Assembly: GCA_002069765.1 (NCBI GenBank)
Contig: MWBZ01000024.1
Span: 1-47,690 of the forward strand
From: a bacterium ADurb.Bin243
GTDB taxonomy: Bacteria > Muiribacteriota > UBA9980
Length of the DNA stretch: 47,690 nt
Direction: 5' to 3'
Under the pieces are notes generated by a model. The model was not told the DNA's origin. It saw only the letters and a list, made by a program, of their open reading frames with translations, and made no database searches. Positions within the stretch are counted from its first letter, which is position 1; every line of letters starts with the position of its first letter. The position numbers and the translations under genes were made by a program. Of this stretch, positions 19,152 through 39,886 are shown one piece after another.

Positions 19152-22100
19152 TTGACTTTTAAAAACTTTATACTGTATTCTATCTTTTTTATTTCGGGAT
19201 TTTGCGGGCTGTGCTACGAAATTCTCTGGTGCCGGGAATTCAATCTCATACTCGGCCACACCACCTACGCCACGGCGATGGTATTAACCGCTTTCATGTC
19301 CGGCCTCGCCGCGGGTTCTTACTTTTTCGGACGGGCTGCCGACCGCGCTAAATCCAGCCTTGCGCTTTACGCCTACATCGAACTGGCCATAGCTTTTTAC
19401 GCAGTCTTTTTTTACCGCCTCATAGAAGTTTATAAAAATTTTTATATATTCGTTCATCCTTATATTTCTCATCCGGCTTCAGACCTTGCTTTCAAGCTTT
19501 TTTCGTCGTTCGCCCTTATAATAATTCCAACAACGCTTATGGGCGCGACGTTTCCGGTCATGGCCAAGATAATAATAGAAAATATGGAAGCGAGGGGCAG
19601 GCAGATCGGGCTGATATATTTTTTTAACAGCGCCGGCGGGGCCCTCGGCTGCTTTATATGCGGCTTTTATCTTCTATACAACTTCGGCTCGGAGTTCGGG
19701 CTTAATATAATTTGCGCGCTCAACATTCTATGCGGCGTCCTGGCTCTCGCCGTCAAAAATTACTATTCGCCGGCCGGAGAAATCCCGGCCGCAGGCGGCG
19801 TTTCACCCCTGACCGCAGAAGACGGCCCCGCAAAAGTCTCGGCCGCGCCGGCTGATGCGCTTCCGATTCCCGGAAGCTTTAATTATATATTCATCTTCAC
19901 CCTGCTTTCCGGGTTTATTTCGATGCTCCTGGAAGTCAGCTGGACGCGCTTTTTAATACTTATCATTGGCTCGTCCACCTACTCTTTTTCCATGATGCTC
20001 TCCGTTTTTATTTTCTTTCTGGCCGCGGGTTCGCTGGCGGTCTCTTACTTCGTCGACAGGCTCGGCGATCCCATGCTCGCATTCGCCCTCTGCGAATTTT
20101 TTATAGGGCTTTATATTCTAGCCACGCTTCCGTTTTACGAAAAACTGCCGCTGCTTTTTATCAACCTTAATAACTCTATCGGGGTGTCGTATTACATTTA
20201 CATGTCGCTTAATTTAATCTTTTGCCTTATCGTTATGGCCGTTCCGGCGCTGCTATTCGGCGCGTCTTTTCCGCTGGCCGCAAAAAGCGTAGAAATGAAT
20301 TACTCCAATAACGCGTCTGAAATAGGAAAACTTTATTCATACAATACGATCGGTTGCATTCTCGGCTCTTTTCTTGCGGGAATAGTGATCCTCCCGTCCG
20401 CCGGGTTTAAAAACTCCATAGAACTGGCTATTGCCATAGCGTTTCTAATTTTTATATGGGCCTCGTCACTGCCTCGCCGCATTAAATCGTCTATTGCGAT
20501 GATTTCCGCGCGCGGCGTGAACATTATGCGCGCCGTAGCGGTAATTTTAATAGCCGCGCTCTTTTTCCTGCCGGCATGGGACCATAAAGTGCTTAATATC
20601 GGAAGTTTTTACCGCACCCGCGGCCTTAACGAAGCGGCGATAACCCAGCTGGCCAATTACAATAAAGTGCTGTATTATAAAGAAAGCATTTCGGCCACGG
20701 TTTACGTTATAGAAGATACCAGGAACGGCCTTAAATATTTAAAAATCAACGGCAAAACCGACGGCTCGACGATGCGTTACGATATGCTCACGCAGAGCTT
20801 TCTGGCGCTGCTTCCGCTGGCAAAGGTCAAAAGCGCCAAAAATATATTGATAATAGGCCTGGGAACGGGCGCCACGCTCGCGGCCGCGTGCAAATTCAAA
20901 GAAGCCGAAAAAATCACCTGCGTTGAAATAATTCCTGAAGTTATCCAGGCCGCGAAACACTTCGATGAAAGTTACGACGCATATAAAAACGACCCCAGGG
21001 TTTCCATAGTGGTAAACGACGCCCGCAGCTTTCTTCTCACGGCGCGTGACAGGTTCGACGTGATAATTTCCGAGCCTTCTAATCCCTGGATCAGCGGCAT
21101 AAGCTCCCTTTTTACAACCGATTTCTTCTCGCTTTGCCGTTCGCGCCTTTCGAAAGAAGGCGTTATGCTGGCATGGATACAGGCTTATGAAAGCTCGCCG
21201 CCCGTTTTTAAACTCGCTTTAAGGACTTTCAGAAGCGTTTTCAACGACGCGTCTTTATGGTTTAACGCTAATTACGACGTTTTTGCGCTCGGTTCGGCGG
21301 ACGGCGCCTGCGGCTCGATCGACGAGCCTTTCGCTTATTATCAAAAGCTGCAATCGCTTCCTGCGCTTAAAGCATTTCTGGACGCAAGCGGCATAAAAGA
21401 CCCTTTGACATTTTCGTCGCTGCGCCTGATGACTTCGCCGCAGCTAAAAAAATACGTAGGGGACGGCATTTTAAATTCAGATAATTTTCAGATGATAGAA
21501 TACGAAGCTCCCGTGAATCTTTACAGCGAGGAGCGCGTAGCGCTCGACTACAGAACATACGCCGACAACCTGGGCGACGCCATCGAATACTGCCGCCGGA
21601 GCACCGATGAAACGCGGCTTAATGAAATGATGAGAAACGCCGCGCTGTTTCTCGGCCACGACTTCGTCGAACCCAGGACCATAATCTCTCTGGCAGGCCT
21701 TATCATATCCAATAACGCGGCCGATGAAAAAATCTATCACTTAAAAGCCGTCTCATGCGCGCGCATAAAATCTTTCGATAGCGCCATAGAAGCTATTACA
21801 AAAGCCATTGATAAAAAACCGGCCGACGAAACTTATTTAAAGCTCAGGGCCGGCTGGTCGCTGCTTCTTGCCGCTAACGGCGTCAGTAAAGGCGTTTCCG
21901 CGCTTCTTGAATCGGCGCGGGCCGACTACGAAAAAGCCGCCGCGCTAAATCCTGTAGACGCCGAAGCCTGGCGCGGGCTTATAACGGCCGCGCGCATTTC
22001 ACGCGACGGAAATTATCTCGTTCAAACGGCTAAAAAGGCTTTTGAAATCAATAAGACCGACGGCCTGACGCTCCTGGATTTAGCCGCCGAAAAGCTCCTG

Positions 22101-22241
22101 GAATTTAACGAATATAGCGCCGCGGCCGAACTCTATGATTTCGCTTTCGCGCGCTCCACGACGCCGCACGAAAAAGCTTTCATAAAAGCCCGAATCGAAG
22201 AATGCGCGTATTTAAAAACCGGCGAAAACGAGCCCAGGTAA
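19152..22241 (+). CDS. Membrane spermidine-synthase-like protein with C-terminal TPR region
   Basis: 1,029 residues. Residues about 1-470 are polytopic membrane (12 or more helices in two similar halves, each starting with a GF-x-(S/G)-x2-x-E-(I/V)-x-W pattern: FCGLCYEILWCREF and FISMLLEVSWTRF). Residues about 500-790 are a Rossmann methyltransferase fold of the spermidine synthase type (LIIGLGTGATLAA, TCVEIIPEV, NDARSFL). The motif SEPSNPWISGISSLFT replaces the catalytic D-x-x-D loop of true spermidine synthases. Residues about 820-1029 are TPR-like helices. The start is TTG with GGGGGA 6 bases upstream. Function unknown; polyamine synthesis is doubtful. Converges with ddl after 46 bases. 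Confidence 0.85.
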   Translation: MTFKNFILYSIFFISGFCGLCYEILWCREFNLILGHTTYATAMVLTAFMSGLAAGSYFFGRAADRAKSSLALYAYIELAIAFYAVFFYRLIEVYKNFYIFVHPYISHPASDLAFKLFSSFALIIIPTTLMGATFPVMAKIIIENMEARGRQIGLIYFFNSAGGALGCFICGFYLLYNFGSEFGLNIICALNILCGVLALAVKNYYSPAGEIPAAGGVSPLTAEDGPAKVSAAPADALPIPGSFNYIFIFTLLSGFISMLLEVSWTRFLILIIGSSTYSFSMMLSVFIFFLAAGSLAVSYFVDRLGDPMLAFALCEFFIGLYILATLPFYEKLPLLFINLNNSIGVSYYIYMSLNLIFCLIVMAVPALLFGASFPLAAKSVEMNYSNNASEIGKLYSYNTIGCILGSFLAGIVILPSAGFKNSIELAIAIAFLIFIWASSLPRRIKSSIAMISARGVNIMRAVAVILIAALFFLPAWDHKVLNIGSFYRTRGLNEAAITQLANYNKVLYYKESISATVYVIEDTRNGLKYLKINGKTDGSTMRYDMLTQSFLALLPLAKVKSAKNILIIGLGTGATLAAACKFKEAEKITCVEIIPEVIQAAKHFDESYDAYKNDPRVSIVVNDARSFLLTARDRFDVIISEPSNPWISGISSLFTTDFFSLCRSRLSKEGVMLAWIQAYESSPPVFKLALRTFRSVFNDASLWFNANYDVFALGSADGACGSIDEPFAYYQKLQSLPALKAFLDASGIKDPLTFSSLRLMTSPQLKKYVGDGILNSDNFQMIEYEAPVNLYSEERVALDYRTYADNLGDAIEYCRRSTDETRLNEMMRNAALFLGHDFVEPRTIISLAGLIISNNAADEKIYHLKAVSCARIKSFDSAIEAITKAIDKKPADETYLKLRAGWSLLLAANGVSKGVSALLESARADYEKAAALNPVDAEAWRGLITAARISRDGNYLVQTAKKAFEINKTDGLTLLDLAAEKLLEFNEYSAAAELYDFAFARSTTPHEKAFIKARIEECAYLKTGENEPR

Positions 22242-25018: not shown

Positions 25019-25783
25019 TTAATTTTCCTCCTCGCTTTCCTCGGTCAATTTCAAAAACACTTCTTCGAGGTTTTTTCCAAGAACATCCGACTGCTCTTTG
25101 TTATCGGTATATTTTTTTATTTTGTCGACTTCGTCGAGCGCGATGATTTTGCCGTGAAATATTATGGCGATCTTCGAACAGACTTCTTCGGCGACCGCCA
25201 GCGTATGAGTCGATAAAAAAATAGTTCCGCCGCTTTCCGATATTTCACGAAATATCTGTTTTACGACTTTGACGTTTTTAGGGTCGAGGCCTATCATGGG
25301 TTCGTCCACTATTAGAAGTTCGGGCTTATGTATAAGCGCCGAAGTGAACACCAGTTTCTGACGCATGCCATGGGAGTATGTTTCGATAAGCGCGTCGGCG
25401 TCCCTGAAAATATTGAACCGCTTCAAATACTGCGACGCGATCTGCCGGGTCTCTTCCCAGTCCCTTTCGAATATATCGGAGACGAACCTTAAAAATTCCC
25501 AGCCCGTTAATTTTTCATATACGTTAGGCGTGTCGGGTATGTATCCCATTACCCTGCGGGCGTTTTTAAAGTTAGTCTCGCTGGCCAGAAGGTCCTGCCC
25601 GTTCATTATGATTTCGCCGGAAGTAGGCTTTAAAAGCCCGGTCAGCATTTTTATAGTGGTGGTTTTCCCGGCGCCGTTAGGGCCTAAAAAACCGAAAATT
25701 TCGCCCCGTTCGATATTGAACGAAACGCCGTCAACCGCGGTAAAGTCACCGTACTTTTTCGCCAGATTTTTCACTTCGAGCAT
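25019..25783 (-). CDS. ABC transporter ATP-binding protein
   Basis: 254-residue ATPase of an ABC-2 type exporter: Walker A GPNGAGKTTT, Q-loop region GYIPDTPNVYEKLT, signature YSHGMRQKL (a variant of LSGGQ), Walker B LLIVDEPMIGLDP and switch His in STHTLAV. The C-terminal about 35 residues are acidic. It begins immediately after the stop of the permease gene (no gap), so the two form one exporter. Substrate unknown. No convincing terminator follows before the next promoter at 24962. Confidence 0.94.
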   Translation of the reverse strand: MLEVKNLAKKYGDFTAVDGVSFNIERGEIFGFLGPNGAGKTTTIKMLTGLLKPTSGEIIMNGQDLLASETNFKNARRVMGYIPDTPNVYEKLTGWEFLRFVSDIFERDWEETRQIASQYLKRFNIFRDADALIETYSHGMRQKLVFTSALIHKPELLIVDEPMIGLDPKNVKVVKQIFREISESGGTIFLSTHTLAVAEEVCSKIAIIFHGKIIALDEVDKIKKYTDNKEQSDVLGKNLEEVFLKLTEESEEEN

Positions 25784-27535
25784 CTATACCTTAATCTCCT
25801 CATAATAATTGACCATTTTATCGGCCGCGAGCCGCCTTGGAACCACATAACCTATAAAGCTGAACGCTATAAGAATCGAAGTCGCCATAAAAAGCATTAA
25901 ATATTCCCAGACGTTAAACGCCGAAAGGCTGAAATTATACCTTGAAAAAAACTCGAAATACATTATTACCGCTTCGAAAGCGAGCAGAACTCCCGCATAT
26001 GCCGCGCAAATTATCATGGCGACGAAGCCTCCGAAACTGGCCGGAATTTCAGAAACCGAAGCGTCGAGAACCGGAAAAATTATTCCTATATAAAGGTTAA
26101 AATGACATATAAAATAAGTCAGCACGATCGTATCGAAATAAGAAAGCAAAAGAAGCGAAGTTTTTATAGACATAAAATAATTTGAAAGCGCGCAAAGAAT
26201 AAGCGCGAAGCTCATCATGGGAATCAGGCTCGTATAAAACTTTAGCCTCAGATATTTTTTTAGATCGACAGGCGAAGTTTTAACTATATAAAAAGCCCTG
26301 CCTTCAAGCGAAAACACTGGAAATACGAACCTTATGGCGTAAGATGTCACTATAAGAGAAATTACGCCTATATTGGCGAATCCGAACATATCCACTATAT
26401 CCGCCGGAAGCGTTTTAGTGGCCACAGGCATCAGCGTGATGTTATAAAGATAAAACGCCGTCACAACTATCATCATGAATACCTGAACCACCAGCGTCTG
26501 CGTCCTTAAGAACGTTTTGACGTCTTTATCCAGTATAGAGGCGAGCCCGCGGGGAAGGATATTTAAAAAGCGGCGGTAAATATAATTTAAGAGGTTTACA
26601 AGCGGATCGAATATGAAACCAAAAACCTTCGATTCCATTCCGTTCTTGCTTTCCTGTTCCTGCTGGTATTTAAGATAGCTTTCATGGTATGTAAAACGCG
26701 CCATAGCAAAGCATACCGCCATGCATAAAAAAGCCGAAGCGTAAGCCGCCGCCAGATTAATATAAAAAAATTTGCCGTATCCGCCGTTAAATATCGATTC
26801 TATAACAAAGCTCATCCACGAAGACGGGAAATTTTCGAATTTAGGCGCGCTGGACGAAAGCAGATAATTGGCGAATATTTCGAGTTTTTCGAGCGAGAGG
26901 AGTTTTTCGGGCTCCAGCGCGCGCAGCATCACTATCAAAAAAGCGAAAAAGAATATCAGAAGGTAATAAATTACTTTTCTCGCCTGGTTTACCGGAAACA
27001 TCTTAGATATGGCAAGCGAAACGAAACACCCTATGGCCGCCGGCATTAAGTAAAAAAACGGCGTCGCGGCCGCCAGCGCCTTTAAAAACGACGCGAACGA
27101 AGCTGTCTGGTAGGAATTATTGAACGCGAGCAGGAGCGTCACGAAAATAATATATGCGCTGGTCACGGAAAAAAAAGACGTTTCCATGAATTTGGCCGCG
27201 AATATCTGGGTGTGCGAAACCGGCATCGAGAATAATAGTTTCAGGTCGCGCGAGGTGAACAACGTGGACATGGACGATATCATAGAGCTCAATATCAGCA
27301 TGCAAAAAAAAGAAAAACACGCCATATTCAAAAGATAGCCTTTGAGCGGCGCAGCCAGAAGCGGCAGCGAATCTATCTTTTGAAGCGTTTTATGGGCGCC
27401 GTAGTAAGAGCCGCCTATGACGGCCGCGGCCGTAAGCAAAATCATCGCCAGCGAAAAAGACGATATGGCCTTATAATAATTCTTATAAGACCATATTTTA
27501 GGGTTGATGATATTTATTATTTTACTTGTCGCCAT
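25784..27535 (-). CDS. ABC-2 type permease, large polytopic
   Basis: 583 residues with about 12-14 hydrophobic membrane segments, no ATPase domain. The segment STLFTSRDLKLLFSMPVSHTQI is characteristic of the ABC-2 permease families with DLxLLxxxPxS after the second helix, where the permease contacts the ATPase. It is twice the usual half-transporter size, so one copy may contain two permease units. The ATPase gene follows without a gap. The HEAT-repeat scaffold gene lies 51 bases upstream on the same strand, so all three may share a transcript. Confidence 0.88.
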   Translation of the reverse strand: MATSKIINIINPKIWSYKNYYKAISSFSLAMILLTAAAVIGGSYYGAHKTLQKIDSLPLLAAPLKGYLLNMACFSFFCMLILSSMISSMSTLFTSRDLKLLFSMPVSHTQIFAAKFMETSFFSVTSAYIIFVTLLLAFNNSYQTASFASFLKALAAATPFFYLMPAAIGCFVSLAISKMFPVNQARKVIYYLLIFFFAFLIVMLRALEPEKLLSLEKLEIFANYLLSSSAPKFENFPSSWMSFVIESIFNGGYGKFFYINLAAAYASAFLCMAVCFAMARFTYHESYLKYQQEQESKNGMESKVFGFIFDPLVNLLNYIYRRFLNILPRGLASILDKDVKTFLRTQTLVVQVFMMIVVTAFYLYNITLMPVATKTLPADIVDMFGFANIGVISLIVTSYAIRFVFPVFSLEGRAFYIVKTSPVDLKKYLRLKFYTSLIPMMSFALILCALSNYFMSIKTSLLLLSYFDTIVLTYFICHFNLYIGIIFPVLDASVSEIPASFGGFVAMIICAAYAGVLLAFEAVIMYFEFFSRYNFSLSAFNVWEYLMLFMATSILIAFSFIGYVVPRRLAADKMVNYYEEIKV

Positions 27536-27586: not shown

Positions 27587-30500
27587 TTAAAAAGTCGGGA
27601 ACTTAACCGGATTCTTAGCCATAATTTTATCCAGGGCCGCGCTGGCCATAGTCCTGACCGACTTATGCTGGTCCATCTGGGACATTTTCAGAGGTATTAC
27701 CGCGCGGATATCGCCGATTTCGCCGAGAGCGATGGCCGCTTTTTCACGCACCGTCCTGTTTTTATCGCGCAGAAGCATAACTACCGGTTCTACCGCGAGC
27801 CTGGATTGCATCTGGCCGAGTATTTCGGCGGCGTTTTCACGCATGAAACTGTTGTGATCGGATAGAGCCGCTATTAAAGGCTTTTCAGCCGAATGATATC
27901 TGAGTTTCGAAAGCACCACAGTAGCCTGCTGGCGTATATTTTCCTCGGCGTGCTTCAGGGCTTCTATCATATGCGGAACCGATCTGTCGCCTAAATTTTT
28001 AATGCTTTCGAACGCCTTGATCCTGACTAAGGAATTAGCGTCGGTGAGCATATTAAGCAGAGGCACGACCGCTGCGAGGGAACCGATCTTACCGAGGGCT
28101 TCGACGGCCTGGCGGCGTACGTTTTCGGACTGGTCCGAAAGCGATTCTATAAGCGATTCGCCGGCGCGCTGGTCTTTTATATTGCCGAGGGTAAATATAG
28201 CAGCTTCCCGGACCTTTTCGGAAGCGTCTTTGAGCAGCCTTAAAAGGTTCATGGGCACGCGGTTATCTTTAAGCTTGCCGAGGGCGTTTATCGCGCTGAT
28301 CCTGACGGCCTCGGAAGAGTCTTTAAGCGCCTGGGTAAGCGGCTCGAGCGAGCGGGCGGAGTTGAGCCCGCCCATTATTTTCACGGCTATTTCGCGCACG
28401 GAGTCGGACTGGTCGCGAAGCATTTTAGCGAGTGGATCGACGATGGATTCGCCGCCGATTCTGCCCAGAGCTTCTATAACCGTTTTTCTGACTTCTTCGC
28501 TGGCGTCGTTTATCTGAGTTATAAGAACGTTAATGGATTTCGCTTCGCCGATTACGCCGAGAGTGTACGCAGCCGCTTGCTTTATATATGCCGAAGGCTC
28601 GGTTATAAGCCTTTGAAGATTGGTGAGCAGGCGGTCGTCGGAGACGCGTTTAAGCGAAAATGCCACGGTTTTGTAACTGACCTGCGATTTTTCGTCTTTG
28701 AGTATATCCAGCAGATTTGTAACCGATTTAGGTATGCCGATAAGGCCGAGCGCATAAACTATATACTGCTTGGTTTGTAAATCCGCGGATTTATAAGCCG
28801 CCATAAGAGCGTTTACCGTATTTTCGTCGCCTATCACGCCCAGAAGTTCGCAGCAGTTTTTGGCGATAGCGGGGAATATTTCAAATATGAGCTGGTTGCG
28901 GGGTTTGTCCATATCGAGCTTTTTGATATCGCGCTCGTTAAGCGTGTTTATAATTATAGAGACGAGATGTCCCGCCGCGCGTTTATCTTTATAAACGTAT
29001 AGCGTTCTGGCAATGGCGAAGCGGTTCCATGAAAGGGCTTCTTTTAATATGATATCTTCTTCGCAAAGTTTGAGGATATGTTCGTCTATAGCCGCCAGGG
29101 CGTCCATTACGACGCCGGCCATGCCTTTCGACGAATGGTCGACGAGGCTTATCAACGGCATTATGGCGCGGCTGTTTCCGATTTTTCCGAGTATCCTGAC
29201 TACTTTGTGCTGGATAACGGCGTTGTCTTTTTCACGCGAGTCGTCGAAGATATCGAGTATCTTCAAAAGATCCGTAACGGCCATATCGCCGATTTCTATC
29301 AATGCCCAGAGCGCTTTTTCGGATACATTTTCGGCGGCGTCGCCCAGGCAGCTTATAAGCGGGCCTATGGACTGCGGATCGTTGAGACGGCCGAGGGCCT
29401 CTATGGCGCCGATTTTAACTTTTTCATTGGGATCGCTCAAAACCTTTATAAGCGGTTCCACCGACGCGGCCGATTTTGTCTTGCCTATCGCCCACACGGC
29501 TTTTTCACGGACGTCTTCGTTTTTATCCAGAAGCATTTTAACGAGTATCGGAATGCACGCTTCATCGGCTATTTCACCGAGAGAGGCGGCGGTTTTAAGC
29601 CTGATATCGTCGTCCGGATGCTGGGCCGAGGAATTGAGATATTCTATAGCCAGCGGGCTCTTGATCTTTCCAAGAGCTTCTATGGCGGAACCTTTTATTT
29701 CGGGGTTCTGGTGCGAAAGCAATATGCAGAGCTTATCGACGGCCTTCGAAGAGCCTATTTCGCCGAGCGAAAAAGCCGCTATTTTCTGGAGGCTTTCATA
29801 CTCGGAATCCAGCTGTTCAATAAGCGCCGAAACTACGCTGTCGGAATGCATTTTTGAAAGCGCCATGCACGCCGAAACCCTTATATTCATTTCCGGATCT
29901 TTAAGCATTTCAATAAGGTAATCCAGGGTGGAATCGTTTTCGAGACGGCCGAGCGCTTCCGTGGCGGCTAGTCTTACCTGAGCCGAAAGGTCGCGCAGGG
30001 AGCCTATGAGGTTTTCGGTGGCCACCGAATCTCCTATTTCGCCGAGACTCTTGGCCGCTATATATCTTATGTCTTCGGAATCGTTATTTAAAAGCTTGCA
30101 GATCGGGTTTACCACCTTGCTGCCGCCGATCTTGCCGAGCGCCTCGCAAGCGCAGTAAACAAGGTCTTCGTCCTTGTTTTTGAGAAGTTTTATCAAAACT
30201 TCCGAAGCCTGGTCCGAACGGATATTTCCAAGGCATTTAACTATGTTGTAGCAGATGTCTATGTCGTCGGTTTCCGTGGTGAGCGCCCTTAAAAGCGGTT
30301 CGACGGCGAGCGGGCTCTTGATTTTTCCGAGGGCGTCGATTACGGTTTCCTTGAGGTCTTTATCGTTCTGCGAAAGAAGTTCGACGAGCGGAATAACCGC
30401 TTTTTCATCCGCCATATCGCCGAGGCGTTCTACAATTTCATGCTTTTCTTCCTGGCTCTGGGCCGCGGCGAGGGATTGAATGAGCTCTTCGACGCTGGCT

Positions 30501-33145
30501 TTCTTTTCTTCTTTAAGCTTCTGCTCGGCCGTAACCGTCTGGGCCTGAATTTCTTCGGCTTGAGGCTGAGCGGACTCTTCAAGCGCTTCGGGTTCCTCTT
30601 CCGAAAGCATATCTATAAGTGCCATTTTGCCGCCTTTAGCCTGTTTAGCGGGCTGGACGGCCGGTTGTACTGCCGCCTGCTGGGGCTGTTGCGGTGGCTG
30701 CTGAAGCGAAACGGAACCGGTAGACGGCGTTTCATCGATAGTTTTTATTGTAGCCGCGGGTACGTCCAGGGTAAATCCGCCCATAGCGGGTTGAGAAGCG
30801 GGCTGCTGGGCCTGAACTTGAGGCGCGGCGGCCTGAACCAGCTGCTGCTTGGCCTGCGGTTCGGCAACCGGAGGCGCGGAAATATCCAGGTTGAAATCGA
30901 AGGCGACAGGCTTTTCGGCCGGCTTTGCCTGCGTTTTTTGATCTACGGCTTTTTTAGGCTCGTTAGAAATAATCAAATCATCGAGCGAGCTGTCCAGCTC
31001 GGTAACATCGCCGAACTGAAAATCGGGCGCCTTTGAAGCCGGAGGCGCGGACGCCGCCGCCGGCTGCGTTTTGGCCGCCGACACGGGTTCGGGAGCGGTC
31101 GTAGCGTTTCCGAGCAGGTCGTTTAACGAAAGGCTCGCTCCCGTAGAAACAGGTTGGGCTGCAGAAACAGGCTTTTTCGCTTCAGCCGAAGGCGAGGCGA
31201 GGTCGAGGCCGCCGCCGAATATATCGGTGACGTCGCGTATTTCGGAAAGTATTTTCGGCGTTTCCTTTTTGACTTCCTTTGGCTTTTCGCTCTGCTCGAT
31301 CAGCTCGGAAAGCAGGTCGTCAGACGGCGCTTCTATGTCGAGATTGAGGTTTTTTAAAGGGTCGAAATCCGCTTGCGGCTCTTTGGCTTTAGCGGCAGGC
31401 GGTTTTGACGCCGCGGAAGGCGGCCCCACTATTTCGTCCAGGCTGAATTCTTCTTCTTTTTTGGCCGGAGCGGGGGCTTTTTTATCGGGCATTTTAGCGG
31501 TAACATTGACCTGCGGAGGAAGCAGCTCGTCCATGTTTATGTCGTCGAGACCGTCGAGGGAAATTTCGCTCCCTTTGGCCGGCGGCTTTGCTTTTGACGC
31601 AGGAGGCTTGGTTTCAGCCTTTGGAGGCTGGGGCGCTTCGCTCAGTAAAAGATCGCCGAGATCGAGGCCCATATCGTCTTCGGCAGCGGCCGCCTTTGCG
31701 GCGGGCTTGACTTCCGGCTTGGCCGCAGGTTTGGTTTCGGGTTTAGCTTCGGCCTTTGCAACCGGTTTGGCTGCCGGTTTAGCCGAATCGATAAGCAGGC
31801 CCGCGAAAGGATCGTCTTCGGCGCCCGCGCCGCCGCCGAGTATATCGGCGAGGTCGAGGTCCATATCGTCCGCCGGTTTTTTAGCGGCGGTTTTGCTTTC
31901 GGGTTTCGCCGCAGGTTTGGCTTCCGGTTTTTTGGCCGAAGCGTCGTCCAGAAGTAAATCGCCGAGATCGAGACCGAGATCGTCTTCGGCAGCGGCCGCC
32001 TTTGCGGCAGGCTTGGCCGAAGGCTTAACTTCAGTTTTGGCCGCGGGTTTGGCTTCCGTTTTTTTGGCCGAAGCGTCGTCCAGAAGAAGATCGCCGAGGT
32101 CGAGACCGAGATCGTCTTCGGCGGCGGCCGCCTTTGCGGCGGGTTTGGCTTCCGGTTTGGCCGCGGGTTTAGCATCGGGTTTCGCCGCGGATTTTGCGGT
32201 TCCGCCCATCAGTTCCGCCAGCATGTCGTCGTCGCCGGCCATATCTATGCTGCTCTCATTCATGTCGAGCTTGAGGTCTTTGCCGAGATCTGAAAAAATA
32301 TCTTCTTCTTCTTTTTTGGCCGCCGACGCTTTTGCTGCAGGTTTTGTTTCCGCTTTAGCCGCCGGTTTCGCCGAAAGGCCCGCCAGCGGGTCGGAAGAAT
32401 CGAGGCCCAGCAGGTCGAGATCGAGATCTACTTCATTATCGGCCAGCACCGGTTTTTCTTTTTTGGCCGCCGGTTTGGCATGCGAATCGGCTTTTTTATC
32501 TTTTTCTTTTTGCTTGTTCGCCATTATATTGTCTATGTCTTCGGCCGCCATAATTTCGAGGCCGTCGAATTCGCCGAGATCGAAAGATTCTTCTTTTTTG
32601 GCCGCCGGCGCAGGAGACTTAGCGGCAGACTTGGCGTCGGATTTTTTAGGCTCGGCCCCGCCTCCCAGTTCCAGGTCGAGGTCGGCGAAAATATCATCGC
32701 TCGGTTTTTTAGCGGCGGGTTTTGCGGCGGGTTTCTTGGCGTCGGTCATGGTGCCCAGTTCCGCGAAAATGTCGTCGTTGTCCGCAGGTTTAGCTTTGGA
32801 ATCTTTAGGTTTTGAGCCGGAAAGGTCTTCGAATATGTCCTGATTTCCAGCGGCGGCTTTACCCTTCGACTTGGCGTCGGAAGAAATGCCGAGCTCTTTA
32901 AATATCTGATCGTCGTCCATGTTAAGGTCGATATCGATATCTTTTGAAGCGCCTTTTGCGGCGGGTTTTTTGGCGCCGCCCGAAGCCGACGGTTCGTCGG
33001 TTTTAAGCTGGTCTAAAAGGCTGTCCAGATCGAGATCGCCGCCCGAAGCGGCCGCCTTTGCCTTTGCTTTTAAAGGCGCGCTGCATTCGGAGCATATTTC
33101 GGCCTTATCGTCGTTAGCGACGCCACACGTCTTACAGAGTATCAT
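27587..33145 (-). CDS. Zinc-ribbon, motif-string and HEAT-repeat scaffold protein
   Basis: 1,852 residues, family of the whole not recognised. Residues 1-25 are a zinc ribbon (CKTCG...CSECS). Residues about 36-800 are Lys/Ala/Pro linker holding some 18-20 short acidic-hydrophobic motifs such as DDIFAELG, QDIFEDL, DDLGLDLGDLLL, SLNDLLG and SLDDLII. Gln/Pro-rich sequence follows to about 890. Residues about 895-1850 are roughly 28 HEAT (PBS lyase-like) repeats of about 31 residues, for example DSVREIAVKIMGGLN and SENVRRQAVEALGKIG. No signal peptide or membrane helix, so cytosolic. It looks like a multivalent scaffold: motifs offer repeated docking sites, HEAT repeats a long binding surface. ATG at 33145 has GGAGG at 4-base spacing; an earlier in-frame start lacks a site. 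Confidence 0.9.
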   Translation of the reverse strand: MILCKTCGVANDDKAEICSECSAPLKAKAKAAASGGDLDLDSLLDQLKTDEPSASGGAKKPAAKGASKDIDIDLNMDDDQIFKELGISSDAKSKGKAAAGNQDIFEDLSGSKPKDSKAKPADNDDIFAELGTMTDAKKPAAKPAAKKPSDDIFADLDLELGGGAEPKKSDAKSAAKSPAPAAKKEESFDLGEFDGLEIMAAEDIDNIMANKQKEKDKKADSHAKPAAKKEKPVLADNEVDLDLDLLGLDSSDPLAGLSAKPAAKAETKPAAKASAAKKEEEDIFSDLGKDLKLDMNESSIDMAGDDDMLAELMGGTAKSAAKPDAKPAAKPEAKPAAKAAAAEDDLGLDLGDLLLDDASAKKTEAKPAAKTEVKPSAKPAAKAAAAEDDLGLDLGDLLLDDASAKKPEAKPAAKPESKTAAKKPADDMDLDLADILGGGAGAEDDPFAGLLIDSAKPAAKPVAKAEAKPETKPAAKPEVKPAAKAAAAEDDMGLDLGDLLLSEAPQPPKAETKPPASKAKPPAKGSEISLDGLDDINMDELLPPQVNVTAKMPDKKAPAPAKKEEEFSLDEIVGPPSAASKPPAAKAKEPQADFDPLKNLNLDIEAPSDDLLSELIEQSEKPKEVKKETPKILSEIRDVTDIFGGGLDLASPSAEAKKPVSAAQPVSTGASLSLNDLLGNATTAPEPVSAAKTQPAAASAPPASKAPDFQFGDVTELDSSLDDLIISNEPKKAVDQKTQAKPAEKPVAFDFNLDISAPPVAEPQAKQQLVQAAAPQVQAQQPASQPAMGGFTLDVPAATIKTIDETPSTGSVSLQQPPQQPQQAAVQPAVQPAKQAKGGKMALIDMLSEEEPEALEESAQPQAEEIQAQTVTAEQKLKEEKKASVEELIQSLAAAQSQEEKHEIVERLGDMADEKAVIPLVELLSQNDKDLKETVIDALGKIKSPLAVEPLLRALTTETDDIDICYNIVKCLGNIRSDQASEVLIKLLKNKDEDLVYCACEALGKIGGSKVVNPICKLLNNDSEDIRYIAAKSLGEIGDSVATENLIGSLRDLSAQVRLAATEALGRLENDSTLDYLIEMLKDPEMNIRVSACMALSKMHSDSVVSALIEQLDSEYESLQKIAAFSLGEIGSSKAVDKLCILLSHQNPEIKGSAIEALGKIKSPLAIEYLNSSAQHPDDDIRLKTAASLGEIADEACIPILVKMLLDKNEDVREKAVWAIGKTKSAASVEPLIKVLSDPNEKVKIGAIEALGRLNDPQSIGPLISCLGDAAENVSEKALWALIEIGDMAVTDLLKILDIFDDSREKDNAVIQHKVVRILGKIGNSRAIMPLISLVDHSSKGMAGVVMDALAAIDEHILKLCEEDIILKEALSWNRFAIARTLYVYKDKRAAGHLVSIIINTLNERDIKKLDMDKPRNQLIFEIFPAIAKNCCELLGVIGDENTVNALMAAYKSADLQTKQYIVYALGLIGIPKSVTNLLDILKDEKSQVSYKTVAFSLKRVSDDRLLTNLQRLITEPSAYIKQAAAYTLGVIGEAKSINVLITQINDASEEVRKTVIEALGRIGGESIVDPLAKMLRDQSDSVREIAVKIMGGLNSARSLEPLTQALKDSSEAVRISAINALGKLKDNRVPMNLLRLLKDASEKVREAAIFTLGNIKDQRAGESLIESLSDQSENVRRQAVEALGKIGSLAAVVPLLNMLTDANSLVRIKAFESIKNLGDRSVPHMIEALKHAEENIRQQATVVLSKLRYHSAEKPLIAALSDHNSFMRENAAEILGQMQSRLAVEPVVMLLRDKNRTVREKAAIALGEIGDIRAVIPLKMSQMDQHKSVRTMASAALDKIMAKNPVKFPTF
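31640..32150 (-). repeat. Imperfect about 135-bp coding repeats in the scaffold gene
   Basis: Three copies encode AKAAAAEDD(L/M)GLDLGDLLL, near 31648-31700, 31960-32010 and 32090-32140. The last two also share the following DDASAKK and a Lys/Pro/Ala linker, with a period of about 135 bp (45 residues); differences are mostly synonymous. This indicates growth of the motif string by tandem duplication. Confidence 0.8.
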
Positions 33146-33221: not shown

Positions 33222-33506
33222 CTATGCAGATTCTTCCTCATAGAATTTATTATCGATCAAATTACACAAATCATTAATTATTTTTTCTTCGTCTTCGAGC
33301 GAATCGCCCCGCGCGGTAATCACGATAGATTCGCCAATCCCCGCGCAAAGCATCATCACTCCGAGAATACTCTTTCCGTTTACTTCTATGTCGCCCTTTC
33401 TTACAGATATACTGCACTTCGACTTATTGGCCTGTTCGACGAATAAGGTTGCCGGACGAGCGTGCATACCGGAAGTATTTTTAATTTCACATTCCCGCTC
33501 GATCAT
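33222..33506 (-). CDS. HPr-like phosphocarrier protein
   Basis: 94-residue HPr. The active-site motif GMHARPA carries His15 (phosphorylated by Enzyme I) and NGKSILGVMML carries Ser46, the target of HPr kinase/phosphorylase. Keeping both implies that a regulatory HPr kinase exists in the genome. No Enzyme I, HPr kinase or PTS permease is in the window. It lies between a ROK sugar kinase (upstream, 93-nt gap) and the HEAT scaffold (downstream, 76-nt gap). A TATAAT at 33540-33545 without a clear -35 could be its promoter. In genomes without sugar PTS, such HPr proteins act as regulators. Confidence 0.93.
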   Translation of the reverse strand: MIERECEIKNTSGMHARPATLFVEQANKSKCSISVRKGDIEVNGKSILGVMMLCAGIGESIVITARGDSLEDEEKIINDLCNLIDNKFYEEESA

Positions 33507-36832: not shown

Positions 36833-38107
36833 TTAATAGCTTACCCAGCCGCCGTTTGCGCCGTCCGCATCGCTCGCCGTAGGATCATACATTTCATCGC
36901 CGTAGCACTGCGTCATCTTATGCGCCATTTTTAAAAATTCGTCCCACCTGAACCCGCAAAATTTAATGGTGTTGTAACATGTGTTGAAATGGTAGGTAGG
37001 AAAGTATATCGACATACCGGAAGCGTTTCTCGTCGCGGTTCCCGAAGTCGCGTTTTCGAATACGGCTTTTTGATAGGCCATCAGCACAAGCCTTGCGCGT
37101 TCGATTATTTTTTCATTTTTCGAATTTTCGATAATGCGTTTCATAAGATGCCCTATATCTACCGACGTGCGATCGTAGAATTTCTGCGCGCCGTTCAGCG
37201 CCGCTTTCACGGAAGCGATTTCAGCGCTATCGCCGGCCGATTCTATATAAGCTTCGGCTAATAAATCAACGGCTTCGGCCAGTTCGCCAACGCGCGAGCA
37301 ATCCACGGAAGACATCGCCGTGCTGTTTTTACTATCGTTCTTATAGCTTTCGCAGAAAGCCTGGGGAATCATTGAAGCGAATTCCTTAGGGCTTATCTGC
37401 GGATTTTTCATCAGAGGCCCGAAAATCATTTCATAAGGCCAGCCCGGGCCGGGTATGTTTTCTTCGGAAGCCACGACGAAATTAACGAAATCCTTTATTT
37501 CGTAATTCACTTCAAGCATCTGCATCAGGCAGGCGTCCGTGCCGAATATGTCGAGGCGCTTTCCGAGGATCGTGCAGATCATCTGCATAGCCGCGCCAAG
37601 TTCCTTATTTGAAAGGTTGTGGCCGGATTGGTCGTCGTAAGAAATTCCGCGGAAATCGGCCGATTTTTTCTTTTTCTTCCAGCCGTAACCATGATTTTGA
37701 ATGATAAGCATATATTTTCCGGCCGGATAATTTTCATGGGACCATTTTACGAATTTAACGAGCTCTTTCATATCGCCCATATCCACTTCGCCGAGTTCTT
37801 CGAGTTTTTTACAGCTGAAGCCCCAGTCGTCCGGCGCGCTCTCCGAAGAGCGCTCCGTCACGCAATAGCGTCTGGCGGGCTTATCCAGACGGTCAATTTC
37901 GACTACCACGTTAACGCTTTCTGAAGTCCCGGCGCGTTGCATTTCAATGACGTCATTTACAAGGTCTGCGTCGAGGTTGTTGTCGGCGTTCGAATACACC
38001 ATTATCGTCCACTTTTTAGCGGAAGCCTCCGCGGAATGAGCATAAGTCAGTGGTACATTGGATAACAAAAGAACCGTCAACAATAAAACACTTAATTTTT
38101 TAATCAT
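36833..38107 (-). CDS. Clostripain-family (C11) cysteine peptidase, secreted
   Basis: 424 residues with a Sec signal peptide (about 1-25). The caspase-like fold is recognised by WTIMVYSNADNNLD at the start of the domain and the catalytic dyad IIQNHGYGW (His139) and FGTDACLMQMLEV (Cys193). C11 peptidases cleave after Arg or Lys and mature by self-cleavage. No second chain or dedicated secretion gene is adjacent. The C terminus is Asp/Asn/Gly-rich. It is expressed from a perfect consensus promoter (38137-38165) and faces a divergent gene at 38243. Confidence 0.92.
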   Translation of the reverse strand: MIKKLSVLLLTVLLLSNVPLTYAHSAEASAKKWTIMVYSNADNNLDADLVNDVIEMQRAGTSESVNVVVEIDRLDKPARRYCVTERSSESAPDDWGFSCKKLEELGEVDMGDMKELVKFVKWSHENYPAGKYMLIIQNHGYGWKKKKKSADFRGISYDDQSGHNLSNKELGAAMQMICTILGKRLDIFGTDACLMQMLEVNYEIKDFVNFVVASEENIPGPGWPYEMIFGPLMKNPQISPKEFASMIPQAFCESYKNDSKNSTAMSSVDCSRVGELAEAVDLLAEAYIESAGDSAEIASVKAALNGAQKFYDRTSVDIGHLMKRIIENSKNEKIIERARLVLMAYQKAVFENATSGTATRNASGMSIYFPTYHFNTCYNTIKFCGFRWDEFLKMAHKMTQCYGDEMYDPTASDADGANGGWVSY

Positions 38108-38242: not shown

Positions 38243-39886
38243 ATGACAGGCGATAACAACGAAAAACCGGCGCAATTAACCGCCGCGGATACTTTCGAGC
38301 ACAAACCGCTATCCTTATATCTTTTATGGTCCGTGTTCATAACGGGCGCGGGCGTCATGGCGGCCGAAATGGCCGCTCCGCGCCTTCTTGCGCCTTCCTT
38401 CGGCGCGAGCCAGCTCATATGGACTAACATAATAGGAACCATTCTTACCGCTTTAACCCTGGGGGCTTTCGCCGGCGGAAAGCTGGCCGACCGCTGGCCG
38501 TCGGAACGCTCTTATGCTTTAGTTCTCGTAATTTCGGGAGCTTCGCTAGCCGCCGTACCGCTGATATCCAGGCCTTTTTTAACATGGGCGTCTTCCGCTC
38601 TTTTTGAAATGAAGATAGGCCTTTTTCTGATATCCCTTTTTTCCGTCAGCGTATTTTTCGCCCCTCCGGTCTTCCTGCTCGGAATGCTCGGCCCGTGGGC
38701 CATAAAGATAGCGGGCTCCGCAAGAAGCGACCTGGGGAGCGTCGCCGGCGTTATAGCCGCATTTTCAGCCGCGGGCAGCATCGCCGGAACTTTTCTGACT
38801 TCCCTTGTTTTTTTGCCCGTCTTCGGCACGCGCGCCACCATTCTTTTTACGGCCGCCCTGATCGCTTCCACCGGCGCATGGAAGCTGCTAGCCTATAAAG
38901 GCCGGTTTAAAACGGCAGACGGCGAAGAAGAAAAAAGGCAGACGGACGTTTTATCGCTGATTATTCTTTTTCTGGGCGTAATTTGCGCGGCGCCGCTTTT
39001 TTTAAAAGGCTCCCTGGGGCCGGTTAAAAGTACCTCCGGCCAGCTTCACGAAACCGAAAGCGCATACCAGTATGTAGAAGTCGTTAAAAGCGCCTCCGGC
39101 AGAAAGTTTTTATTGTTAAACGAAGGCGTCAGCTGCCACTCGATATTGCCGGCAAAAGGCTTTCTCACAGGCGGATGCTGGGATTATATCTGCGCGCTTC
39201 CCATGCTTGCCGCCCCGGCGCCGCGGCCGCTTCGCGTGCTGATACTCGGCCTCGCCGCCGGCACCATAGCGCGTGAAATAGACCATTTTTACGGCAATTC
39301 AAGAGCTATCGAGATTGAAGGGGTCGAAATAGATCCGGCCGTCATCGAAGCGGGCAGGCGTTTTTTCGGCCTGGAAAAAATACCTTCGCTCACCATCCGG
39401 GCCGCGGACGCGCGCTTTTTTTTAAAAACCGCCCGCAAGGAATACGACCTGATTATCGCCGACGCTTTCCTGCAGCCTTACATACCTTTTCACATGATAA
39501 CCCGCGAATTTTATGCCGAATGCCTGCAGCGCCTTTCGGCGGACGGTATTTTCGCCATAAATCTCGGCGCAAAGCGCGGCGATTCGGAGCTTAGCGACGC
39601 GTTTGCGGCCACGATGAATTCCGTTTTTCCGTTCGTTCATCGCGTAACGGTCGATAACGAAGAAACGCCTTTCGATAATCATATTTTCACGGGCTCAAGG
39701 CGGGACGTTTCGCCCGCGGGCATTAAAAACCCGCCGCACGGCCTCGAGCGAGTCCTCGAAAAGCTCGTTTCGGCATGGCGCGAATTGCCTCAAAATACCA
39801 ACGGGCTCGTTTTTACCGACGATCGTTCGCCAATAGAAATGCTCACGGAGCGGCTGATCATCAAAAGCGCTTTCGAGCGCCGATAA
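38243..39886 (+). CDS. Membrane spermidine-synthase-like protein
   Basis: 547 residues. About 25-260 holds roughly seven membrane helices of the type fused to spermidine-synthase domains (AGVMAAEMAAPRLLAPSFG, then GAFAGGKLADR). About 275-520 is a Rossmann domain: LILGLAAGTIARE, GVEIDPAVIEAG, AADARFFL and IIADAFLQPYIPFHM. The usual spermidine-synthase loop with two Asp (D-x-x-D) is DAFLQ here, with only the first Asp, so aminopropyl transfer is uncertain. It has no TPR extension and is clearly different in sequence from the gene at 19152. AAGGAAG precedes the ATG. Likely cotranscribed with the next two secreted-protein genes. Confidence 0.87.
   Translation: MTGDNNEKPAQLTAADTFEHKPLSLYLLWSVFITGAGVMAAEMAAPRLLAPSFGASQLIWTNIIGTILTALTLGAFAGGKLADRWPSERSYALVLVISGASLAAVPLISRPFLTWASSALFEMKIGLFLISLFSVSVFFAPPVFLLGMLGPWAIKIAGSARSDLGSVAGVIAAFSAAGSIAGTFLTSLVFLPVFGTRATILFTAALIASTGAWKLLAYKGRFKTADGEEEKRQTDVLSLIILFLGVICAAPLFLKGSLGPVKSTSGQLHETESAYQYVEVVKSASGRKFLLLNEGVSCHSILPAKGFLTGGCWDYICALPMLAAPAPRPLRVLILGLAAGTIAREIDHFYGNSRAIEIEGVEIDPAVIEAGRRFFGLEKIPSLTIRAADARFFLKTARKEYDLIIADAFLQPYIPFHMITREFYAECLQRLSADGIFAINLGAKRGDSELSDAFAATMNSVFPFVHRVTVDNEETPFDNHIFTGSRRDVSPAGIKNPPHGLERVLEKLVSAWRELPQNTNGLVFTDDRSPIEMLTERLIIKSAFERR

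Follow-up and report, generated by a model that had tools for sequence, protein, structure and literature searches.

Analysis of a 47,690-nucleotide stretch of DNA from bacterium ADurb.Bin243 (GenBank assembly GCA_002069765.1, contig MWBZ01000024.1; hereafter the window) revealed a giant HEAT-repeat protein that is single-copy, vertically inherited, specific to its phylum (Muiribacteriota) and kept phylum-wide, and whose long disordered arm is under motif-wise purifying selection in this genus. We consider it probable that this protein is a cytoplasmic scaffold whose motif arm docks client proteins. Few bacterial scaffolds are known to work through arrays of short linear motifs, most of them from proteobacteria. 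Here evolution itself separates motif, spacer and solenoid over about 40 genomes, such that the rules of a docking arm (the residues that count, the freedom of the spacers and the changes in motif number) can be tested directly, and an uncultured phylum gains a candidate core organising protein together with a concrete lead into the phosphotransferase system (PTS).

Architecture of the gene and its product

The open reading frame lies exactly where the first-pass annotation had placed it, and the combination of a zinc ribbon with HEAT repeats that was described there was confirmed (Table 1). The zinc ribbon of the window protein (CKTC...CSEC, residues 4-21) scored 22.9 bits against the Pfam model Zn_Ribbon_1, just below the cut-off of 25, which the orthologues of families f4 (37.2 bits) and f3 (33.2 bits) exceeded. 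Its four cysteines were present in every complete orthologue, with the first knuckle in f6 taking the form CxC. The HEAT body matched Pfam HEAT_2 with E = 1.1e-146 and its repeats reached the last 10 residues of the C-terminus, while AlphaFold2 placed 59 helices over residues ~869-1844 at a pLDDT of ~90, giving 29-30 HEAT-like pairs, slightly more than the roughly 28 repeats counted at first. The HEAT_2 match together with the tandem antiparallel helix pairs places the protein in the HEAT-repeat superfamily. An open reading frame of 590 aa on the opposite strand (31071-32843) overlaps the motif-arm region and seems to owe its existence to the Lys/Ala/Pro codons of the arm.

Table 1. Coordinates in the window of the giant HEAT gene, its parts and its upstream neighbour.
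Feature	Position	Strand	Basis
Whole gene: zinc ribbon, motif arm and HEAT solenoid, 1852 aa	27587..33145	-	Open frame with ATG at 33145 and stop at 27587; ATG kept in 3 genus orthologues
Zinc ribbon, residues 1-25, Cys 4, 7, 18, 21	33071..33145	-	Pfam Zn_Ribbon_1/DZR; CxxC...CxxC pattern; AlphaFold2 pLDDT ~83
Disordered motif arm, residues 26-870, 22 acidic/hydrophobic islands with Lys/Ala/Pro linkers	30536..33070	-	Motif enrichment; selective conservation; predicted disorder with helices on islands
First island DLDLDSLLDQL, residues 37-47	33005..33037	-	Invariant in the genus; predicted helix 40-49
Islands DDIFAELG and DDIFADLDLEL, residues 122-165	32651..32782	-	Strict form of the DDIFx[DE]L motif, almost absent from other genes of the genus genomes
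Tandem duplicate of a 132-nt island-plus-linker unit (DLGLDLGDLLLDDASAKK...)	31898..32161	-	Direct repeat, 86% identical
HEAT solenoid, residues 871-1852, ~30 repeats	27590..30535	-	Pfam; alignment of 29 orthologues; AlphaFold2
Irregular central solenoid segment, residues 1335-1460, family signature	28766..29143	-	Separates the phylum from 342 other genomes
HPr (ptsH) gene, same direction, 76 nt upstream of the giant HEAT gene	33222..33506	-	Pfam PTS-HPr, 8.2e-25

A motif array above chance and under selection

Islands rich in Asp/Glu and Leu/Ile/Phe/Met recur along the arm (22 islands of 6-24 residues, between residues 37 and 851, with a mean centre spacing of 38 residues), close to the initial count of 18-20 motifs over about 760 residues. 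The islands carry a net charge of -116 over 305 residues, and the linkers, rich in Ala/Lys/Pro, carry +64 over 540 residues. Comparison with composition-preserving shuffles of the arm revealed that DDIFx[DE]L occurred 5 times against 0.03 expected, DLDL-like pairs 18 times against 1.4, and all motif classes combined 31 times against 3.0 (z = 16.7), with 90% of the Leu, Ile, Phe and Met residues having an acid within two residues as opposed to 56% in the shuffles (maximum 70%). The excess of DIFx[DE]L (6 observed, 1.03 expected, 0 of 2000 shuffles) and of DLDL (19 observed, 7.9 expected, p = 0.0005) survived when residues were shuffled inside each island only, which indicates that residue order counts beyond island composition.

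A DNA-pattern search of the genus genomes found DDIFx[DE]L almost confined to the giant HEAT gene, with 2 isolated matches elsewhere, in 2 of the 4 genomes, which argues that the motif multiplied within one protein; the idea that it is common to many proteins of the genome was rejected on the same observation. A search of the window's own genome with the arm as a whole gave no further match, although low-complexity filtering may mask some. The tandem duplication of a 132-nt unit of motif and linker indicates that the array grew in part that way in this genus.

Selection on the arm was evaluated in an alignment of four genus members, with the islands delimited solely by composition in the window protein. 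Invariant columns made up 71% of the islands and 43% of the linkers, and within islands Asp (91%), Phe (100%), Ile (83%) and Leu (82%) were mostly invariant, whereas Asp in linkers was invariant at only 33% of its positions. Gapped columns accounted for 1% of island and 12% of linker columns, and 63 of the 69 insertion columns fell outside islands. Between the closest pair of genus members, dN was 4.6-fold lower in islands (0.018) than in linkers (0.083) at a similar dS (0.59 and 0.64), yielding dN/dS of 0.03 for islands, 0.13 for linkers and 0.03 for the HEAT body; these ratios come from that pair only because dS is near saturation in the others. Motif counts were nearly equal across the genus (31-34 under the widest motif definition). 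In this genus, purifying selection acts on the arm motif by motif, and the view of the first-pass annotation that its motifs look selected rather than random was borne out by the orthologue comparison: the islands are kept, the linkers drift and gaps lie almost exclusively in linkers, and the outcome it had named as speaking for drift, motifs varying as freely as their linkers, was absent among the genus orthologues. Random low complexity was rejected by the arm shuffles, the within-island shuffles and the orthologue comparison. Part of the contrast between islands and linkers could reflect slower change of Asp, Phe and Leu as residues, an explanation weakened, on the few genus sequences compared (n = 4), because Asp in linkers lacks such conservation.

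Conservation across the phylum

A search with the full-length protein recovered the orthologue in nearly all genomes of the phylum. One copy of the architecture is present in each of 36 of the 40 phylum genomes, and the 4 genomes without the protein are 70-84% complete. A signature profile of the irregular solenoid segment gave 82-199 bits and one strong place in each of these 36 genomes (the match in G037 is broken into two parts). None of 342 genomes from beyond the phylum scored above 38.6 bits, and the similarity there was generic to HEAT repeats only; a homologue outside the phylum was rejected on this evidence. The HEAT body was colinear over ~970 aa in 29 orthologues, with 29-38% identity outside the genus and a nearly fixed length, the genus studied here having two short insertions, and members of each family clustered together in an unrooted tree. 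In the f2 orthologue (G004:C73; L017, L042) a single stop in the HEAT body leaves two frames, of 984 and 404 residues, which could come from a faulty assembly or reflect a gene that is truly divided.

Complete orthologues all start with a zinc ribbon followed by an acidic arm, and in most families a DL-rich counterpart of the first island lies just after the ribbon. The arm spans 832-849 residues in this genus versus 391-469 in the other orthologues, and carries about 6-34 motifs across the phylum. Motifs were enriched over shuffles in nearly all orthologues (z 2-18), with one f3 orthologue at background (z 0.6). DDIF-type motifs, present in f1, f3, f4, f6 and f7, were counted 72 times in forward and 12 times in reversed orientation, with a forward excess in each family, so the motif is directional. 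DLDL occurs in f1, f4 and f5, and the f5 arm consists almost wholly of symmetric DLDL alternation, without the directional DDIF. A third motif, [DE]LLPP (e.g. YEDLLPPKL), runs in one direction only in f1, f4, f6 and f7, where it is carried by the window protein and the arms of L016, L018, L035 and L038, and is perhaps a second docking motif with a partner of its own.

Linker chemistry differs between families. Lys and Arg together make up 10-14% of the arm in f1, f4 and f7 and 1-6% in f3, f5 and f6, with acidic islands set among lysine-rich linkers in the window protein and, less strongly, in f4 and f7. Elsewhere the linkers shift from Lys/Ala/Pro to Ser/Thr/Asn/Gly or Ala/Pro, and motif enrichment stays. 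Because the motifs persist while linker chemistry changes, the conserved feature is a class of acidic/hydrophobic docking-like motif, kept as its number and subtype vary by family, and neither the charge-block pattern nor an exact motif count.

Predicted structure

Within residues 1-400, AlphaFold2 predicted a folded zinc ribbon and short helices, the longest of 20 residues, that coincided with the islands, such that helix covered 53 of 171 island residues (31%) and 18 of 204 linker residues (9%; Fisher p 6e-8); the alignment behind the model had four sequences, so these helices are to be read as propensity, not fold. The model of residues 653-1852 left the arm disordered (pLDDT ~30) and the last motifs undocked on the solenoid, and intramolecular docking is thus absent from this model. 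The solenoid is net acidic, with a charge of -7 to -44 in the orthologues checked, and its C-terminal part holds a conserved arginine ladder and a net positive charge. Fold matches in the PDB were giant solenoids (CAND1, karyopherin-beta2 and SF3B1) at query-normalised TM scores of at most 0.27, with alphaRep as a local match; kinship with CAND1, karyopherin or SF3B1 was rejected, the solenoid type alone being in common.

Gene neighbourhood and a possible PTS link

All four genus genomes show the order ROK kinase, HPr, giant HEAT gene, ABC permease and ABC ATPase, the last two lying directly downstream in the window at 25784-27535 (-; PF16949) and 25019-25783 (-). In f2 and f4 an enzyme I gene lies directly upstream and overlaps the start of the giant HEAT gene by 26-32 nt, and in four f5 genomes it lies 150-220 nt upstream, preceded by HPr and EIID in three of them. 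Counted by family, an HPr or enzyme I gene is the immediate upstream neighbour in four, with overlap in two. GH57 shares the cluster with the HEAT orthologue in f2, f4, f6 and one f5 genome, and GH57 and/or ROK sugar genes recur there in f1, f2, f4, f6 and one f5 genome. Most other f5 genomes have RecJ-ComFB upstream (the pair adjoins orthologues L044, L045, L047, L050, L053, L054, L056, L058, L068 and L070), f3 has GlmS-GlmU in that place (named by eye from the sequence), and in G016 both upstream cluster types flank the orthologue. In cyanobacteria, ComFB has been reported to act as a receptor for c-di-AMP with links to pili and competence (PMC12313861). The genome analysed here has an enzyme I-like gene elsewhere, on contig C41. 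The recurring sugar and PTS neighbours suggest an ancestral ROK-GH57-HPr-EI-HEAT locus, and we infer from them a possible link to sugar-phosphotransfer control, a lead that is strongest where the genes overlap.

Comparison with known systems

The polar landmark proteins HubP/FimV possess a long unstructured cytoplasmic region, with acidic repeats that differ from species to species in number and sequence, and after it a docking domain that is an alpha-solenoid of TPR type (PMC12918733). The outline of this comparison, drawn already in the first-pass annotation, is apt, given a disordered region with 22 acidic islands followed by a solenoid, but the parts differ: a zinc ribbon is present, and the Pfam scan found no LysM domain; no transmembrane segment was seen, the top 19-residue hydropathy being 1.47 (in HEAT helices) and 0.66 in the N-terminal arm; a ~30-repeat HEAT solenoid stands where HubP/FimV has the short C-terminal TPR of FimV type; and the motifs are well conserved within the genus, in contrast to repeats that vary between species. 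PomY of Myxococcus xanthus, a multivalent assembly factor, likewise joins bacterial HEAT repeats to a disordered region (PMC10307791), but it begins with a coiled coil where our protein has a zinc ribbon and then an arm predicted to be disordered apart from short helices, and it has six HEAT repeats followed by a C-terminal disordered region, whereas here the disordered region is N-terminal and the ~30 repeats are C-terminal. TmaR, which retains PTS enzyme I in condensates in E. coli (PMC12539622), is a possible functional parallel only, the link here resting on gene neighbourhood.

PBS-type HEAT proteins (CpcE/NblB, YibA and alphaRep) share the repeat unit and gave the best local NCBIfam and PDB matches, but their lengths and partners differ and all matches lay below the NCBIfam cut-offs; the closest models, for phycobilin lyase and NblB, reached 226.9 bits against an equivalog cut-off of 300 and 188.2 against 330, both summed over repeats. 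Acidic activation domains of eukaryotic transcription factors form a helix on binding. They resemble the arm in using clusters of acidic and hydrophobic residues as short docking motifs (PMC10550315), but here the array is bacterial, long and carried on a HEAT protein in which no DNA-binding domain was found. Literature joining Wallbacteria and the HEAT repeat was not found, nor, in the literature searched, was a bacterial scaffold of this zinc-ribbon, HEAT and disordered architecture. The protein belongs to neither HubP/FimV nor PomY and is best filed as a multivalent bacterial scaffold type, a family of its own.

A probable docking scaffold and its alternatives

Of the readings considered, a docking scaffold is the best-supported, with selection on the islands, the directional DDIF, motif enrichment despite linker change, the predicted helices on islands, the colinear solenoid, the near-exclusivity of the motif to this gene and the tandem duplication all in its favour. 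The multivalent docking platform proposed at the outset therefore stands as a probable reading, although its last motifs are undocked in the AlphaFold2 model and the HEAT body is net acidic. In such a scaffold, the motifs would act as docking peptides, each becoming a short amphipathic helix as it meets a groove common to one or a few clients, so that many weak contacts add up, while the solenoid would hold a larger, geometrically fixed partner and the zinc ribbon would contact or position the assembly. Motif number would be adjustable through tandem duplication of motif and linker, so that the arm may tune valency and not be a fixed structure. The array could also act through solubility, spacing or electrostatics, roles that ask little of the sequence; the f5 arm is built of symmetric DLDL without DDIF and one f3 member lies at background.

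A specific form of the docking scaffold would have the protein dock or sequester enzyme I and HPr, or be governed by them, with a TmaR-like logic. The position of HPr just upstream in the four genus genomes, that of enzyme I in f2, f4 and four f5 genomes, the recurrent GH57/ROK genes with the ancestral locus they suggest, and the binding and inhibition of enzyme I by TmaR condensates in E. coli (PMC12539622) point this way, but the adjacency is missing in most f5 genomes and in f3, co-transcription does not prove contact and slow decay of gene order in the phylum might account for the adjacency that is seen, leaving it an unlikely form. We regard as unlikely a phylum-defining hub that organises enzyme I, HPr and other clients on helix-forming acidic peptides, gains valency by duplication of motif and linker and, as a bacterial cytoplasmic organiser, shares no ancestry with known landmark or condensate proteins. 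Were the acidic islands instead to attract the lysine linkers, the arm might phase-separate by charge patterning with clients secondary, as the opposite net charges of islands and linkers, their sticker-and-spacer pattern and the lysine- and arginine-rich arms of f4 and f7 would allow; yet motifs persist in the lysine- and arginine-poor arms of f3, f5 and f6, and the PomY disordered region with HEAT repeats gave no condensates in vitro without its coiled coil (PMC10307791), so we find this improbable. Charge-block condensation as a conserved function was rejected, linker lysines not being phylum-wide, and the phase-separating scaffold also suggested in the first-pass annotation is not favoured in that role. 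The motifs could also bind the groove of their own HEAT solenoid as a lid that a client displaces, and arm and solenoid are indeed always one chain with an arginine ladder and positive charge near its end, but the undocked, disordered arm of the model and the net negative solenoid in the orthologues checked render this decidedly improbable. Family differences in arm length (391-849 residues) and motif number, together with internal tandem repeats, would fit a drifting low-complexity spacer that merely separates the zinc ribbon from the HEAT body, a notion contradicted because the genus comparison shows conserved islands between unconserved, gap-bearing linkers; with a directional motif as well, we hold it very improbable indeed.

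Other HEAT frames and nearby genes

A second giant HEAT open frame, of 2656-2678 aa, recurs in several phylum genomes (G003:C36, G004:C22, G006:C2 and, outside the window, the genome analysed here at G000:C32:34282-35601). That genome (5.0 Mb) is strikingly HEAT-rich, with 143 HEAT_2 matches over dozens of open frames. Elsewhere in the window, 36833-38107 (-) encodes a clostripain-family (C11) peptidase, and 19152-22241 and 38243-39886 (+) encode two proteins with spermidine-synthase domains, one of which has a weak MFS-like match at its N-terminus.
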